Shown one piece after another: positions 58,594 through 63,811 of a DNA stretch of 64,000 bases. The stretch is from an uncultured Eubacteriales bacterium (GTDB taxonomy: Bacteria; Bacillota; Clostridia; Christensenellales; Aristaeellaceae), in the NCBI GenBank assembly GCA_900315315.1, contig OMYT01000001.1:124001-188000 (forward strand). Reading direction: 5' to 3'. A program made the position numbers and the translations under genes. The stretch's first letter is position 1. Each line of letters opens with the position of its first letter. The notes beneath the pieces were generated by a model. That model searched no databases, had not been told where the DNA came from, and saw nothing but the letters and a program-made list of their open reading frames with translations.

Positions 58594-59598
58594 ATGGCTC
58601 AAGCGAATGATATCGGAATCGATCTCGGCACGTCAAATGTTGTAATCTACATGAAAGGAAGCGGAATTGTTTTCCGTGAGCCCGCAGTTGTCGCTATCGA
58701 CAGAGAAACCAGAAGCATCATCGCGTTCGGGCTGGAGGCATACCGAATGATTGGCAGAACCCCCGCCAATGTCAATGTGATTCGTCCACTGGCTCAAGGT
58801 GAGATGTTTGATTTTGATCTGGCGAGTGCTATGCTTCGTTTTTTTGTTTCCTCTGTTATCGGCAAACGTCTGATTTCTAGGCCAAGGGCTGTAATGGCAG
58901 TTCCTTCCGGAGTTAAAGATATTGAAAAAAAGGCTCTTATAAGCGCAATGTTCGATGCTGGTGTACGGCGGACGCAGCTGCTTGATAAAAATATTGCCGC
59001 AGCTCTCGGCGCGCAGCTTAATTTTCTCGGACCTTACGGAAGCATGGTTGTAGATATCAGCGCAGGCTGTACAGATCTCGCGGTCCTATATAACGGATCA
59101 ATTTCCGTGATCAGTTCCGTTCATATCGGCGGCGATCATTTTGATGAAGCAATTATCCGCTATCTTAGGAAAAAGTATAATATGCTTATTGGAGAGCGGA
59201 CTGCCGAGCAGATCAAGATCACGCTGGGCGGAGCAATCCGTCGTGATCCGCGGGTTGAGATGGATATTACAGGCAGAAATCTGATTTCCGGTCTCCCGAA
59301 GACTATGTCCGTTGAATCTGATGAGATTTATGAAGCGATTCTTGACCAAGTGAATGACTTGATCGAAGCCGTCCAGGTTGTAATCGAAAAAACGCCCCCC
59401 CAGCTTGCATCCGACATATTTGACGGAGGTGTTACGCTGACAGGAGGCGGTGCTGCATTGTATGGTCTTGCCGAAGCAATCGGATCTGTTCTGAATATTC
59501 CATGCCGGGTAGCCGAAGATGCTAAGGATTGTGTTGTCTTAGGCTGTGCAAAAATCCTGACCGATCCTTCGGGAATGCGTCATCTTCTTACTGTTTAA
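58594..59598 (+). CDS. mreB: Rod shape-determining protein of the MreB/Mbl actin family
   Basis: Bacterial actin homologue of 334 residues that polymerises at the membrane and positions cell-wall synthesis. The phosphate-1 motif NDIGIDLGTSNVVIYMKGSG, phosphate-2 MVVDISAGCTDLAVLYNG, SVHIGGDHFDEAIIRYLRKK, and adenosine motif GVTLTGGGAALYGLAEAI are present. The N-terminus lacks a long amphipathic helix. It stands alone, not next to mreC/mreD, which favours an Mbl/MreBH-type extra copy. Its 3' end overlaps the converging fusion gene by 11 bases. Confidence 0.93.
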   Translation: MAQANDIGIDLGTSNVVIYMKGSGIVFREPAVVAIDRETRSIIAFGLEAYRMIGRTPANVNVIRPLAQGEMFDFDLASAMLRFFVSSVIGKRLISRPRAVMAVPSGVKDIEKKALISAMFDAGVRRTQLLDKNIAAALGAQLNFLGPYGSMVVDISAGCTDLAVLYNGSISVISSVHIGGDHFDEAIIRYLRKKYNMLIGERTAEQIKITLGGAIRRDPRVEMDITGRNLISGLPKTMSVESDEIYEAILDQVNDLIEAVQVVIEKTPPQLASDIFDGGVTLTGGGAALYGLAEAIGSVLNIPCRVAEDAKDCVVLGCAKILTDPSGMRHLLTV

Positions 59599-62104
59599 CA
59601 CCTCCCGCAGTGTCAATTCCGGCTGCACCAATCAGTCCAAGCCGCTGAGCAGCTTCTTCACGCATACGGTATTTCAGTATTTTTCCTGCAGCATTCATCG
59701 GGAATGAATCAACAAATTCAATATACTGCGGTACCTTATGCCGGGCCATATGTGATTTGATATATTCGGTCATCTCTTCTTTTGTTGCCTGCATGTCTTT
59801 CTTCAGGATAATACAGGCCATAACCGCTTCTCCGTATTTGGCATCAGGCACACCGATTACCTGAACATCTGCAACCGACGGATGCGTATAAATGAATTCT
59901 TCTATCTCCTTCGGATAGATATTTTCGCCTCCACGTATAATCATATCTTTCAGTCTGCCTGTGATCAGATAAGTTCCGTCAGTATTTCTACGTGCAAGGT
60001 CACCTGAATGCAGCCACCCATCTCCGTCTATAGCTGAATTGGTGGCGTCCGGCATTTTATAATATCCTTTCATAATATTATAACCACGGGAGCAGAATTC
60101 ACCATCCTGGCCGTCCGGAAGATCTTTACCCGTTTCCGGGTCAATTATTTTTGTTTGAACATGCGGGAATGAATATCCCACAGTTTCCGTTCTAAGTTCA
60201 AGAGAATCTGTCCAGGCAGACATTGTGCTTCCGGGAGATGATTCTGTCTGACCATATACACTTACGATTCCCCGCATGTTCATTTCATCAGGCTGTGCTG
60301 CGCGCTTCATCAGTTCCGGCGGACATCCTGAACCAGCCATGATCCCTGTTCTCATGTAAGAAAAATCTGTTTTTCTGTAATCTTCATGATTAAACATGGC
60401 GATGAACATTGTCGGGACACCATTGAAACAGGTAATCCTTTCCTGGTTGATACATGCGAGTGAGTTTTTTGCAGAAAAGTATGGAAGGGGACAAAGTGTC
60501 GTTCCGTGTGTTATGGATGCTGTCATTGAAAGAACCATCCCGAAGCAATGGAACATCGGTACCTGAATCATCATTCGATCTGCAGTTGAAAGTCCCATTC
60601 TGTCACCGATACATTTTCCGTCGTTGATCACGTTGTAATGTGTCAACATAACTCCTTTGGGGAAACCTGTCGTGCCGGAAGTATACTGCATATTGCAGAC
60701 ATCATCAGGCTGAACATGCTGTGCCATACTCTCAAGTTTTTCCCGAGAAACGGAATCAGCGCGTTTCATAGCTTCTTCAAATGTCAGACAGCCTTGCTGA
60801 ACATATCCGACAGTGATCACATTACGAAGAAAAGGCAGTTTTTTGCAATGAAGCGGTTCACCTGCCCTGGAAGCAGCTATTTCCGGACACAGTTCATTAA
60901 TAATGGAACGGTAATTACTGTCAAGCGCACTTTCGATCATAACAAGTGTATGGGTATCACTCTGACGCAGAAGATATTCCGCTTCATGGATTTTATATGC
61001 CGTGTTGACTGTAACAAGAACCGCTCCGATTTTTGTGGTAGCCCAGAAAGTGATATACCACGCCGGAACATTTGTCGCCCATATTGCTACCTTATTTCCG
61101 GCCCGGACGCCCATCGAGATCAGAGCCCTTGCAAAGCGGTCCACATCTTCCCTGAATTCTTCATATGTACGTGTATAATCCAAAGTTGTGTATTTGAATG
61201 CATACTGATCAGGGAATTCTTCAACAAGTTTGTCAAGAACATTTCCAAAAGTCATGTCAATCAGTTCATCTTTTTTCCATATATATTTTCCTGTACCATC
61301 ATGATTGAAGTAAAGACTTTTCTTTTTACCTCTGGGATTTTCAAAACGGTTCATATAGTTGATAAAATGGGAAAAAATGATTTCTCTGTCCGGAATATCC
61401 GGCATCCATTCCGGTTTCCATTCCAGGGAGATATAACCGTTATAATCTATAGATGAAAGTGCATTCATCATTTCGAGAACAGGAAGCGTTCCTTCACCAA
61501 TCAGATTGTAAGAAAGATCATCATTGGAATCCCGCAGATGAACATGCCGGACATAACCTCCGAGATTCCGGATCGTCTGATCAGGCGTCTCAGAAAAATC
61601 TCTTACGGGGTGATGCATATCCCACAATGCAGCCAGTTCGTCGCATGCATAATCATCCATGAGTTTTCTCAGGCGATTCGTATCCGCATAAATCCCGACG
61701 GTTTTGATCAGGATGCAGACATTCTCTTCAGCCGCTGTTTCCAGAAGCCTGTTCAGATTATTTCTAACCACGTTTTCCCTGTCTCTCAACGAGCAAAAAG
61801 CAACATAAGGGACCTTCATGGCAGCAGCTGTCTTTATGACCAGAAGTGCTTTGTCCAACGGTTCATTCTCAAAGGAAAGATCAATATATGTATCAAAACA
61901 CGGAATGGTCAGACCGGATTTCCTGAGTGCACGCATCGTTTCATTCTGCATGAAAGGATGAAAAGCACCGCCTTTTCCTGACAGGGAAGGATAATCCTGA
62001 ATATTGTATGGTTCAATCCCGAGGAAGCCCATCTCTTCCGCATCCCGAACCTGTTCTTCCCAGCTTAGACTGTTCCAGCCTCGCGTTGAAAAAGAGAGAT
62101 TCAT
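59588..62104 (-). CDS. Fusion: sugar phosphate isomerase/epimerase-type TIM barrel + acyl-CoA synthetase
   Basis: An 838-residue protein joining two complete-looking domains. Residues 1 to about 255 are a xylose-isomerase-like TIM barrel (MNLSFSTRGWNSLSWEEQVR, WDMHHP, RHVHLRDSNDD, GYISLEWKPEW); the usual metal-binding Glu near residue 134 is Lys (ILIKTVG), the other ligands (D162, H164, H187/H189, E228) are kept. Residues about 280-838 are an AMP-forming acyl-CoA ligase: YTSGTTGFPKGVMLTHYN (P-loop), VYGQTESSPG, GWLHSGDLARRNTDGTYLIT, GRLKDMIIRGGENIYPKEIE and NAAGKILKYRMR with the catalytic lysine. It starts in a 4-base overlap with the LeuA-like gene. The acid substrate and why a TIM barrel is attached are unknown. 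Confidence 0.85.
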   Translation of the reverse strand: MNLSFSTRGWNSLSWEEQVRDAEEMGFLGIEPYNIQDYPSLSGKGGAFHPFMQNETMRALRKSGLTIPCFDTYIDLSFENEPLDKALLVIKTAAAMKVPYVAFCSLRDRENVVRNNLNRLLETAAEENVCILIKTVGIYADTNRLRKLMDDYACDELAALWDMHHPVRDFSETPDQTIRNLGGYVRHVHLRDSNDDLSYNLIGEGTLPVLEMMNALSSIDYNGYISLEWKPEWMPDIPDREIIFSHFINYMNRFENPRGKKKSLYFNHDGTGKYIWKKDELIDMTFGNVLDKLVEEFPDQYAFKYTTLDYTRTYEEFREDVDRFARALISMGVRAGNKVAIWATNVPAWYITFWATTKIGAVLVTVNTAYKIHEAEYLLRQSDTHTLVMIESALDSNYRSIINELCPEIAASRAGEPLHCKKLPFLRNVITVGYVQQGCLTFEEAMKRADSVSREKLESMAQHVQPDDVCNMQYTSGTTGFPKGVMLTHYNVINDGKCIGDRMGLSTADRMMIQVPMFHCFGMVLSMTASITHGTTLCPLPYFSAKNSLACINQERITCFNGVPTMFIAMFNHEDYRKTDFSYMRTGIMAGSGCPPELMKRAAQPDEMNMRGIVSVYGQTESSPGSTMSAWTDSLELRTETVGYSFPHVQTKIIDPETGKDLPDGQDGEFCSRGYNIMKGYYKMPDATNSAIDGDGWLHSGDLARRNTDGTYLITGRLKDMIIRGGENIYPKEIEEFIYTHPSVADVQVIGVPDAKYGEAVMACIILKKDMQATKEEMTEYIKSHMARHKVPQYIEFVDSFPMNAAGKILKYRMREEAAQRLGLIGAAGIDTAGGVKQ

Positions 62105-63525
62105 GCTTCTTCCTCCTCATATACAATCTTGTTAACAGCATTAATATATGCCATAATGCCTGCACCAACAATGTCCGTTGAAATACCTCTGCCGGAATAA
62201 AGTTTCCCCTCGTGGCGAAGTTTTACAATGGTTTCACCCATTGCTTCACGTCCTTCAGTTACGGACTGAATCTGGAAATCATCCAATTCATAGTGGCGAC
62301 CCGTTGCCATTTCGATCGAATTGAAAGCAGCATCAATCGCACCATCACCAGAAGCAATACCCACAATTTCCTGATTGTGATACATCAGTTTCATATGAGA
62401 CATGGCTCCGATCGTATTGCCTGTGTTAATTACATATTGAATGCTGTGATAAGCGGGAGGTACCTGCATTGCTTCAGCCGCAATAATCGCATCAAGTTCT
62501 TTCAATGAAATGGTTTCCTTTTTTTCAACCGTACGGATGAAAACATTCCAGACTTTCTGCTGATCTTCAGCCCCAAGGTCAAATCCCAATTTTTCTGCCG
62601 CCATGATGACAGTTTCAAATGAATCATGAATACTTAAAACGATATCCGAATCATGGGCCGAAAGTGAATCTGAAAAAACAATAGAACGGTTCTTTTCAGC
62701 GCTGCAAATCTGATCAACCTGACTTGTAATCCGGTTGATTTGTTCGTTTTCAACCGTACATTTTGCTTTTGCCAACGCACCTTTGATATTCAGGATCCTG
62801 ACAATATCAGCCAACGATATAGCGTTACCCCGGTATGCCGTTGTCTTCAGCATCCCGATGCCAACTGACACAGCAGCAAAAGCGCATGCATCTGCAAGAT
62901 TCAACTCTCCAGAGCAATGAAATCCAACTGTCAGACTTCTCAATTCTGGTACATCCTTAAATAAATCTGTCAGGAATATGGTTGCCTCATCCGGTGTAAG
63001 CACACCGGCAGTATCACAAAGCGTAATCGTTTTCGCACCGGCTTTAACAGCAACCAAAATAATTTTACGGAGAAATTCAGGATCGCTTCTTGTCGCATCT
63101 GCGGCAATAAACTCAACATCATCCGTCAACGCTCTGCACTCGCTTATACGGTTTTCCACAGCGGCTGTCAATCCTGCCGCTTTCAAATGAAGCATATATT
63201 CCATCTGAACAGAACTGACCGGCGCTACTACCTGCAGACGCGCCTTTTGTGCTTCTTTCAACGCTTCCCAAGTCAGTTGTACGGAATCCGCATCCGTCAG
63301 ACTCACAGGAACAGCAACAACTGCCCGCTGAACAGCCGAGCAAATGGACTTAATTAATAGCCTGTCAATCTTTTTTTGTCTGATTTCACATAAATCAATT
63401 GCTGACACACCAAGCCTGTCAATTAACCTGCATAATTCTATTTTTTCTCTGAAGCTCAGCTCAATATGATTTGCTGCGTCAAGCAGCGTACAATCGCAGA
63501 TCATAATTTCTTTTTGCCGGTCCAT
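62101..63525 (-). CDS. LeuA-family (isopropylmalate synthase-like) protein with altered active site
   Basis: A 474-residue member of the DRE-TIM metallolyases with a C-terminal LeuA dimerisation/leucine-binding domain (residues about 355-470: GDGAIDAAFNSIEMATGRHY, YSGRGISTDIVGAGIMAYIN). The barrel keeps DATRSDPEFLRK, CDTAGVLTPDEA and RGNAISLADIV, but key residues are changed: the DxTLRDG motif reads DCTLLDA, so the catalytic Arg is Leu15 (metal ligand Asp16 kept); the metal-binding HxH reads FHCSGE, so the second His is Ser205; the acid in the FxxEDA strand is Ala (FIAADA). Normal isopropylmalate synthase activity is therefore doubtful. The start at 63525 (MDRQKEIM) follows GGAGG; the longer TTG frame overlaps it. 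It is controlled by a T-box. Confidence 0.85.
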   Translation of the reverse strand: MDRQKEIMICDCTLLDAANHIELSFREKIELCRLIDRLGVSAIDLCEIRQKKIDRLLIKSICSAVQRAVVAVPVSLTDADSVQLTWEALKEAQKARLQVVAPVSSVQMEYMLHLKAAGLTAAVENRISECRALTDDVEFIAADATRSDPEFLRKIILVAVKAGAKTITLCDTAGVLTPDEATIFLTDLFKDVPELRSLTVGFHCSGELNLADACAFAAVSVGIGMLKTTAYRGNAISLADIVRILNIKGALAKAKCTVENEQINRITSQVDQICSAEKNRSIVFSDSLSAHDSDIVLSIHDSFETVIMAAEKLGFDLGAEDQQKVWNVFIRTVEKKETISLKELDAIIAAEAMQVPPAYHSIQYVINTGNTIGAMSHMKLMYHNQEIVGIASGDGAIDAAFNSIEMATGRHYELDDFQIQSVTEGREAMGETIVKLRHEGKLYSGRGISTDIVGAGIMAYINAVNKIVYEEEEA

Positions 63526-63545
63526 AGCGTTTGTTTCCTCCTTCA

Positions 63546-63811
63546 ATTAAAAACCCTGAAGCCGAAGCCTCAGGGACGAAATCTTTCCGCGGTACCACCC
63601 TAATTACTCTGATCACAAAGTCTCTCTCGAACTCAAACAAGTTCACAGCCGGTTACGGGGCACCCGTATTCCATTACTGACTCTTCGCGTTCATGGAATC
63701 AACTCCGGAAGCAGTAGCCTTTTACTCCGCACTACCTTGCAGCAACCGGCAGCTCTCTGCAGCTTCTGTAAAAGGGTTATCGACCATCATCGTCTTTCAC
63801 AGTATGAAATT
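63546..63811 (-). promoter_or_regulatory. T-box riboswitch of the LeuA-like/fusion operon (probably leucine)
   Basis: On the minus strand the core TTAGGGTGGTACCGCGG (63587-63603) precedes a terminator (CCCTGAGGC TTCG GCTTCAGGG then TTTTTAA, 63546-63575). Stem I is readable: an 8-bp helix CCTTTTAC...GTAAAAGG encloses the distal AGAGAGCTGCC...GGTAG hairpin. Directly 3' of it the strand reads CTACTGCTT (63709-63717), three leucine codons in a row, so a leucine specifier is likely whichever triplet is used. The exact specifier register was not resolved. Confidence 0.88.

Follow-up and report, generated by a model that had tools for sequence, protein, structure and literature searches.

A LeuA-like protein with a lost catalytic set and a conserved leucine-type domain, paired with an acyl-CoA ligase in Clostridia: a candidate leucine sensor

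The window analysed here is the whole of a 64,000-nucleotide stretch of DNA from an uncultured Eubacteriales bacterium of the gut (GTDB lineage Bacteria; Bacillota; Clostridia; Christensenellales; Aristaeellaceae), comprising positions 124,001 to 188,000 of contig OMYT01000001.1 in assembly GCA_900315315.1. Near its end lies a minus-strand gene whose product resembles isopropylmalate synthase (LeuA). An earlier prediction, made from the letters of the window alone and called the original prediction below, suggested a leucine-sensing pseudoenzyme or an enzyme of changed chemistry rather than a leucine-pathway enzyme. In our view the protein is probably a leucine-sensing pseudoenzyme derived from isopropylmalate synthase, which gates the activation of isovalerate in an isovalerate-to-leucine route. 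It has lost the LeuA catalytic set and conserved the regulatory domain, it is closely paired with an acyl-CoA ligase, its gene follows a leucine T-box, and among its relatives it co-occurs with VorB and a branched-chain aminotransferase (BCAT). We infer from this setting that it binds leucine, that it forms a complex with the ligase, that isovalerate is the acid used and that leucine acts negatively.

The LeuA-like protein

62101..63525, minus strand: LeuA-like gene, 474 aa from ATG 63525 or 481 aa from the upstream TTG 63546; HMGL barrel plus LeuA allosteric domain
62677..63507, minus strand: degenerate HMGL/LeuA barrel, residues 14-290 (column retention against canonical LeuA)
62125..62505, minus strand: LeuA_dimer allosteric domain, residues 348-474, conserved (Pfam, 95.1 bits; column retention)

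At its maximum extent the open reading frame (ORF) spans 62101-63546 and opens at TTG. An AAGGAGG ribosome-binding site at 63543-63537 adjoins this TTG and lies just 5′ of ATG 63525, which is therefore the likely start, as originally chosen. Residues are numbered in the 481-residue scheme, which adds 7 to the numbers of the original prediction.

Pfam recognizes an HMGL-like domain (93.5 bits) in addition to LeuA_dimer, and the closest solved sequences are the LeuA barrels 3rmj and 3ewb. Structure prediction, which had been put forward as a check, yielded an AlphaFold2 model (pLDDT 91.2, pTM 0.63) with a LeuA-type fold; Foldseek aligned it with full-length LeuA (3hps, 3fig, 1sr9) and with the barrel 3ewb at a TMt of 0.91. 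By Pfam and Foldseek alike, the protein has the HMGL barrel and LeuA_dimer architecture of LeuA. The regulatory domain alone matched no PDB chain by phmmer, and a profile of it found a single PDB entry, 3f6g (E 0.0005). Four PRK00915-type LeuA models match the protein at 178-256 bits, where their cut-offs are 532-748, and the LeuA equivalog TIGR00973 scores 223 bits against a cut-off of 599.

The columns of 111 family members were compared with those of 23 canonical LeuA from other Clostridia. The members comprise the 96 rows of an earlier alignment and 15 from L176-L190, with L151 excluded; the LeuA-like genes of L126, L128 and L135 are in no alignment, because the ORF caller preferred antisense frames. 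All 23 canonical proteins have R, D, E, H and H in the catalytic and metal columns, to which we take the roles of Arg80, Glu218 and His287 of the Mycobacterium tuberculosis enzyme to apply. In the window protein DxTLRD reads DCTLLD, so that the catalytic Arg is replaced by Leu22 and the metal Asp is kept as Asp23, and the HxH metal pair is His210-Cys-Ser212, its first His kept and its second replaced. Alignment to solved LeuA places Ala149 at the Glu of FxxEDA and a 4-residue deletion in the NGxGER loop. All three replacements named in the original prediction (Arg to Leu at its residue 15, the second His to Ser at its residue 205, and the FxxEDA acid to Ala) are thereby confirmed, and the alignment with canonical LeuA rules out that the Arg or the second His is supplied from a shifted position.

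The loss of the catalytic set, which is well supported, extends through the family. Of the 111 members, 13 have the catalytic Arg and not one has the second His. The window protein alone retains the metal Asp and likewise the first His, each of which is lost in the other 110; it is unusually conservative within its family. The GER loop is deleted in all 96 members of the 96-row alignment, and G, E and R are kept in none of the 111. The HESGIHQ segment, which contains a catalytic His, is a gap in 96 of 96 rows; in the 111-member alignment some residues are placed there, with H, I, H and Q kept in 0-9%. LeuA has 108 fixed columns in the barrel; 35 of these persist in half or more of the members and 54 in fewer than a tenth, and the linking subdomain keeps 4 of 35 LeuA columns. 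The regulatory domain keeps 19 of 23, in agreement with the earlier statement that it is well kept. Columns fixed at 95% or more over the 96 members amount to 13.7% of the barrel versus 34.4% (44 of 128) of the regulatory domain, and the strictest conservation falls in this ligand-type domain, including its GDG and GxGxSTD motifs. The leucine-type domain is the part of the protein most guarded by selection.

A scan of public genomes yielded 572 relatives, the best 80 of which were taken as loci, the nearest at 54% identity; a viral scan returned one partial relative. In the genus of the window the gene occurs in 27 of 37 genomes, at up to 66% identity, and each of the ten genomes without it is 85% complete or less. 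A tree of 41 of the 111 LeuA-like rows with 23 LeuA and three CimA-like sequences groups the family on a single branch (100/100) that arises within LeuA. Nine close orthologue pairs within the genus gave an overall dN/dS of 0.021-0.068; omega was 0.029-0.084 for the barrel and did not exceed 0.022 for the regulatory domain. Since it is shared by relatives on a single 100/100 branch with low dN/dS, the loss is not mere decay or chance. A decaying leuA pseudogene, which the missing active-site residues might have suggested, is ruled out by the intact frames in the genus and beyond together with the low dN/dS, and we attach virtually no probability to it.

The same barrel might still be active with changed chemistry, as a metal-independent enzyme in which Lys and Gln replace Arg and Asp, acting on a branched-chain acyl-CoA or 2-oxoacid and retaining leucine feedback. 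Many relatives agree in what now occupies the former active site: among the 96 members, K occupies position 22 (the catalytic Arg) in 67 and Q position 23 (the metal Asp) in 79, or 77 and 80 of the 111, and S is found at 210 in 56 and at 212 in 62 of the 96, the places of the two metal His. Barrel residues Q105, Q114, K122, D150 and R153 are invariant or nearly so, and the low omega of the barrel points the same way. This idea must, however, accommodate the loss of metal Asp, first His and second His in 110, 110 and 111 of 111 members and the deletion of the GER loop. Moreover, the lineages differ at the old site (K, R, P, C, L or Q at 22; S, Q, R, A, G or C at 210), and the window protein itself has neither K at 22 nor Q at 23. 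We regard changed chemistry as unlikely and yet give it an appreciable minority share of belief, because the residues newly conserved in the barrel could belong to a remodelled pocket. Of the two options originally offered, a leucine-sensing pseudoenzyme is thus the better supported, by the catalytic loss, the regulatory constraint and the leucine T-box, and changed chemistry stays as its alternative.

A canonical second leuA, which the original prediction had proposed to look for, was sought in the genome of the window (89% complete), where PF08502 matches this ORF only. Two other HMGL matches there, C168:15635 and C187:381, appear by eye to be pyruvate/oxaloacetate carboxyltransferase-like barrels. 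In three other genomes of the genus (L148, L149 and L150, from G018, G019 and G003) there is a separate protein of 535-553 aa with intact DTTLRDG and HCHND motifs, CimA-like by eye.

The paired barrel-ligase

59588..62104, minus strand: partner gene encoding 838 aa, with a xylose-isomerase-like barrel (residues 1-261) joined to an AMP-forming acyl-CoA ligase (Pfam AP_endonuc_2, AMP-binding, AMP-binding_C)
60059..61228, minus strand: AMP-binding domain of the partner, motif YTSGTTGFPKG intact (Pfam, alignment)
61322..62104, minus strand: xylose-isomerase-like barrel of the partner, in which Lys134 replaces the first metal Glu of solo relatives (alignment)

The partner gene overlaps the stop of the LeuA-like gene by 4 nt. 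Neighbours were indexed for 72 of 81 loci, namely the 80 and that of the window (left out were L017, L018, L019, L031, L032, L037, L041, L050 and L057); the partner is the next gene in 63 of the 72, the window's included and the other nine not checked singly, and the identical 4-nt overlap recurs in 46 of these 63. In a sample of the class, where we chose a score above 200 bits to define a LeuA-like orthologue, the two genes are adjacent in all 26 genomes that have the family.

The barrel-ligase also occurs solo, and none of 20 solo stretches fetched contains a LeuA-like gene. In a ligase tree of 44 rows the 24 paired and 20 solo sequences are split by one branch (100/97), and YTSGTTGFPKG is intact in all 44. 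The nearest model of the paired ligase is PRK12583, at 670 bits and below its cut-off of 832. The metal residues Glu/Asp/His/Glu of the barrel are kept in all 20 aligned solo proteins. In the paired proteins the first metal Glu is changed to Lys in nearly all of the wider clade of the window, and most of the metal site is gone in the G277 clade, although L177, L178 and L183 retain much of it. The solo barrel-ligases (L156-L175) come from other Clostridia; their metal site is apparently intact and they often have a leucine T-box.

Such close pairing with 4-nt coupling would also suit a purely structural role, in which the protein acts as a subunit or scaffold that keeps the ligase, and perhaps VOR, together and its regulatory domain serves for dimerization only. 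In favour of this, metal-site residues of the partner barrel are missing in several paired lineages and in none of the 20 aligned solo proteins. Solo ligases nevertheless manage without a LeuA-like protein, and the strictest conservation, GDG and GxGxSTD included, lies in the ligand-type domain. A scaffold therefore appears rather improbable to us.

T-box leader and pathway context

63569..63799, minus strand: T-box riboswitch leader RF00230, 104.5 bits (gathering score 93), directly upstream of the LeuA-like gene
63712..63714, minus strand: T-box specifier triplet CTG (Leu), read by eye; CUN at the same place in relatives
63549..63575, minus strand: terminator-like hairpin with T run, following the antiterminator, read by eye

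A T-box opens its operon when its amino acid is short. The leader in the window has the curated score, the antiterminator and the specifier codon of RF00230. In relatives, 23 loci of the pair and 20 of the solo ligase were scanned with Rfam, which placed a T-box upstream in 16 and 12 of them, respectively. An antiterminator motif lies within 700 nt of the LeuA-like gene in 71 of 112 loci; the specifier in 69 of these is CUN according to a rule whose second branch accepts CTN only, and in the other two CTC by eye. When 80 LeuA-like leaders were read by a rule lacking this CTN bias, 72 gave Leu, one gave Ser (a register shift by eye) and seven went unread. Applied to 12 barrel-ligase leaders the unbiased rule gave one Leu and 11 unread, CTC being visible by eye in 11 of the 12; by motif, T-boxes were found in 13 of the 20 solo loci, all with CTC. 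As a control, other T-boxes in the loci of relatives were read, and the reading is not always leucine.

Genes found near the pair in relatives encode VorB (535 bits, cut-off 399) with its beta and gamma subunits, BCAT (483 bits, cut-off 307), pyruvate:ferredoxin oxidoreductase and two fusions of XRE, cupin and AMP-ligase domains. All 29 paired genomes tested for VorB have it above the cut-off, and type II BCAT was found in 38 of 40, a figure that covers paired genomes only. Within 15 kb of the pair, VorB occurs in eight and BCAT in nine of 29 genomes, and their position says more than the mere presence of VorB. In L179 one strand carries in a row, with labels assigned by eye, the LeuA-like gene, the barrel-ligase, BCAT, a ParA-like ATPase, VorB and the beta subunit, and L180, L181 and L182 have a similar row, likewise labelled by eye. 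In the window's own genus the pair is set apart, mostly between an MreB-like gene (Pfam) and a PhoH/YbeY/Era-like group (by eye).

IlvC was not found in any of the 37 genomes of the genus. In the class sample it is missing from 22 of 26 paired genomes versus 102 of 267 unpaired ones (Fisher p 5e-6, not corrected for relatedness). The classical leucine pathway is apparently lacking in the window's own genome, since this has no other LeuA_dimer and no IlvC at 89% completeness. The LeuC model TIGR00170 was not used, as its matches were fragmented and none of 61 genomes passed it, even those with canonical LeuA. We consider the placement of the pair in a leucine-forming pathway well supported. The earlier wording "rather than a leucine-pathway enzyme" stands for the classical LeuA pathway only; the gene sits in an apparent isovalerate-to-leucine route.

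In the route that we propose, the LeuA-like barrel would no longer condense acetyl-CoA with 2-oxoisovalerate and would retain its leucine-type allosteric domain; the protein would be translated together with the barrel-ligase and is probably bound to it. The ligase would convert isovalerate (3-methylbutyrate) from the gut, with ATP and CoA, to isovaleryl-CoA, VOR would carboxylate this reductively to 2-oxoisocaproate, and BCAT would form leucine from the latter. When plentiful, leucine would be bound by the LeuA-like subunit and the ligase turned down; uncharged leucyl-tRNA would act through the T-box to let the operon be read. The LeuA-like protein may in this way subject the isovalerate route to leucine feedback, as LeuA does the classical route.

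The same enzymes could be read in reverse, as a module for the fermentative breakdown of branched-chain amino acids, since the conversion of leucine to isovalerate could likewise draw on VOR, BCAT and a CoA ligase, and VorB is common in the order (over cut-off in 49 of 61 genomes). A leucine T-box, by the mechanism given above, opens the operon at leucine shortage, which fits synthesis and argues against breakdown. An AMP-forming ligase, moreover, consumes ATP, and IlvC is rarer in the paired genomes of the class. Breakdown seems to us very improbable.

Several observations weigh against a leucine-sensing subunit in a dedicated isovalerate route. In 41 of the 112 LeuA-like loci there is no antiterminator motif within 700 nt, although Rfam still finds a T-box in three of them (L071, L127 and L182). 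VorB is unspecific: the 49 of 61 genus-and-order genomes in which it exceeds its cut-off include four of the ten with IlvC. The genome of the window has VorB and BCAT on contigs other than that of the pair. IlvC is present in 19 of 50 other pair-holding genomes (from the public-scan loci, 50 of 80 asked), so that the pair is not a simple replacement of the classical route. The strong conservation of the new barrel residues Q105, Q114 and K122, together with K22/Q23, would be superfluous in a mere relic. Finally, the AlphaFold2 model of the ligase is poor (pLDDT 71) and too weak to interpret.

Two XRE-cupin-AMP-ligase fusions near the pair in relatives (L007, L020, L024, L135 and others) have Ile- and Val-type T-boxes. 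Leaders of XRE ligase 2 show ATC in 34 of 40, which is Ile if read in the same layout; an alternative register gives TCA/TCC (Ser). We favour Ile because the ATC is constant and the codon-plus-one-base layout is as in the Val and Leu leaders. Leaders of XRE ligase 1 have GTA or GTC (Val) in 17 of 29 and ATC in two, the remainder being unread. The best model for the two ligases of L020 is MbcS, at 424 and 433 bits, below the cut-off of 850. To judge from these codons, each branched-chain acid may have its own ligase, controlled by the corresponding amino acid.

The genome of the window has, besides VorB, a further and more distantly related VorB-like gene (G000:C111:72721-73746; 355 bits, below cut-off). 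A ParA/CbiA-like P-loop ATPase accompanies VorB in several loci (L020:1666-2337 by Pfam; L059, L175 and L179 by similarity or eye). An Amidohydro_2 protein with a DAHCHIYP-like start lies near the pair in L047 (Pfam) and, by eye, in L059, L073, L177, L178, L180, L182 and L190.

Relation to known systems and significance

The shared barrel and C-terminal LeuA_dimer fold show clear descent from LeuA (TIGR00973 / NF002086). The window protein differs in scoring far below the equivalog cut-offs (256 against 532 and 223 against 599 bits), in the absence of the catalytic Arg, the second His and the GER loop, and in having, by eye, no leuB-, leuC- or leuD-like gene among the neighbouring genes inspected; by the features tested it is not a LeuA. 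The leader resembles any T-box of RF00230, being above the gathering score with antiterminator and terminator; the leader itself is ordinary, and it is the downstream gene that is unusual.

A closer functional parallel may be HisZ, which we take to be an enzyme-derived, non-catalytic partner that carries amino-acid feedback to the first enzyme of its pathway. HisZ is described as a regulatory paralogue of histidyl-tRNA synthetase that controls the short form of HisG (PMC9734150). The LeuA-like protein is likewise an enzyme descendant that lost its catalytic residues under purifying selection, and is genetically paired with one enzyme (26 of 26 class-sample genomes; ligase branch 100/97). It differs in fold and in pathway, and its complex and feedback are those proposed above. 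By analogy, it would work like HisZ. The methylbutyryl-CoA synthetase MbcS is, like the paired ligase in its proposed role, a ligase for branched short-chain acids. MbcS is reported to feed fatty acid synthesis and to use isovalerate poorly (PMC10026030). The paired ligase differs in being nearest PRK12583 (670 of 832), not MbcS.

In the open-licence literature we found no description of a LeuA-like pseudoenzyme family, no paper joining "LeuA" and "pseudoenzyme", and none assigning genes and control to the isovalerate activation step. The formation of leucine by carboxylation of isovalerate in rumen bacteria has been known for decades, as recounted in PMC7356843. For this conversion the locus offers an operon open to direct testing, with candidate genes and a putative leucine sensor. 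There is also a warning for annotation, as the best-hit name, isopropylmalate synthase, would predict a leucine pathway that the window's own genome appears to lack.

More tentatively, and at what we judge to be slightly less than an even chance, gut and rumen Clostridia may have a dedicated isovalerate-to-leucine operon in which a LeuA-derived pseudoenzyme moves the feedback to a new committed step, and may handle the three branched-chain acids with separate ligases, each under its own T-box (the barrel-ligase for Leu, the XRE-cupin ligases for Ile and Val). If the proposed role is true, the family would be a clear example of a feedback domain outliving its own enzyme and being put to use again on a different route with the same end product.

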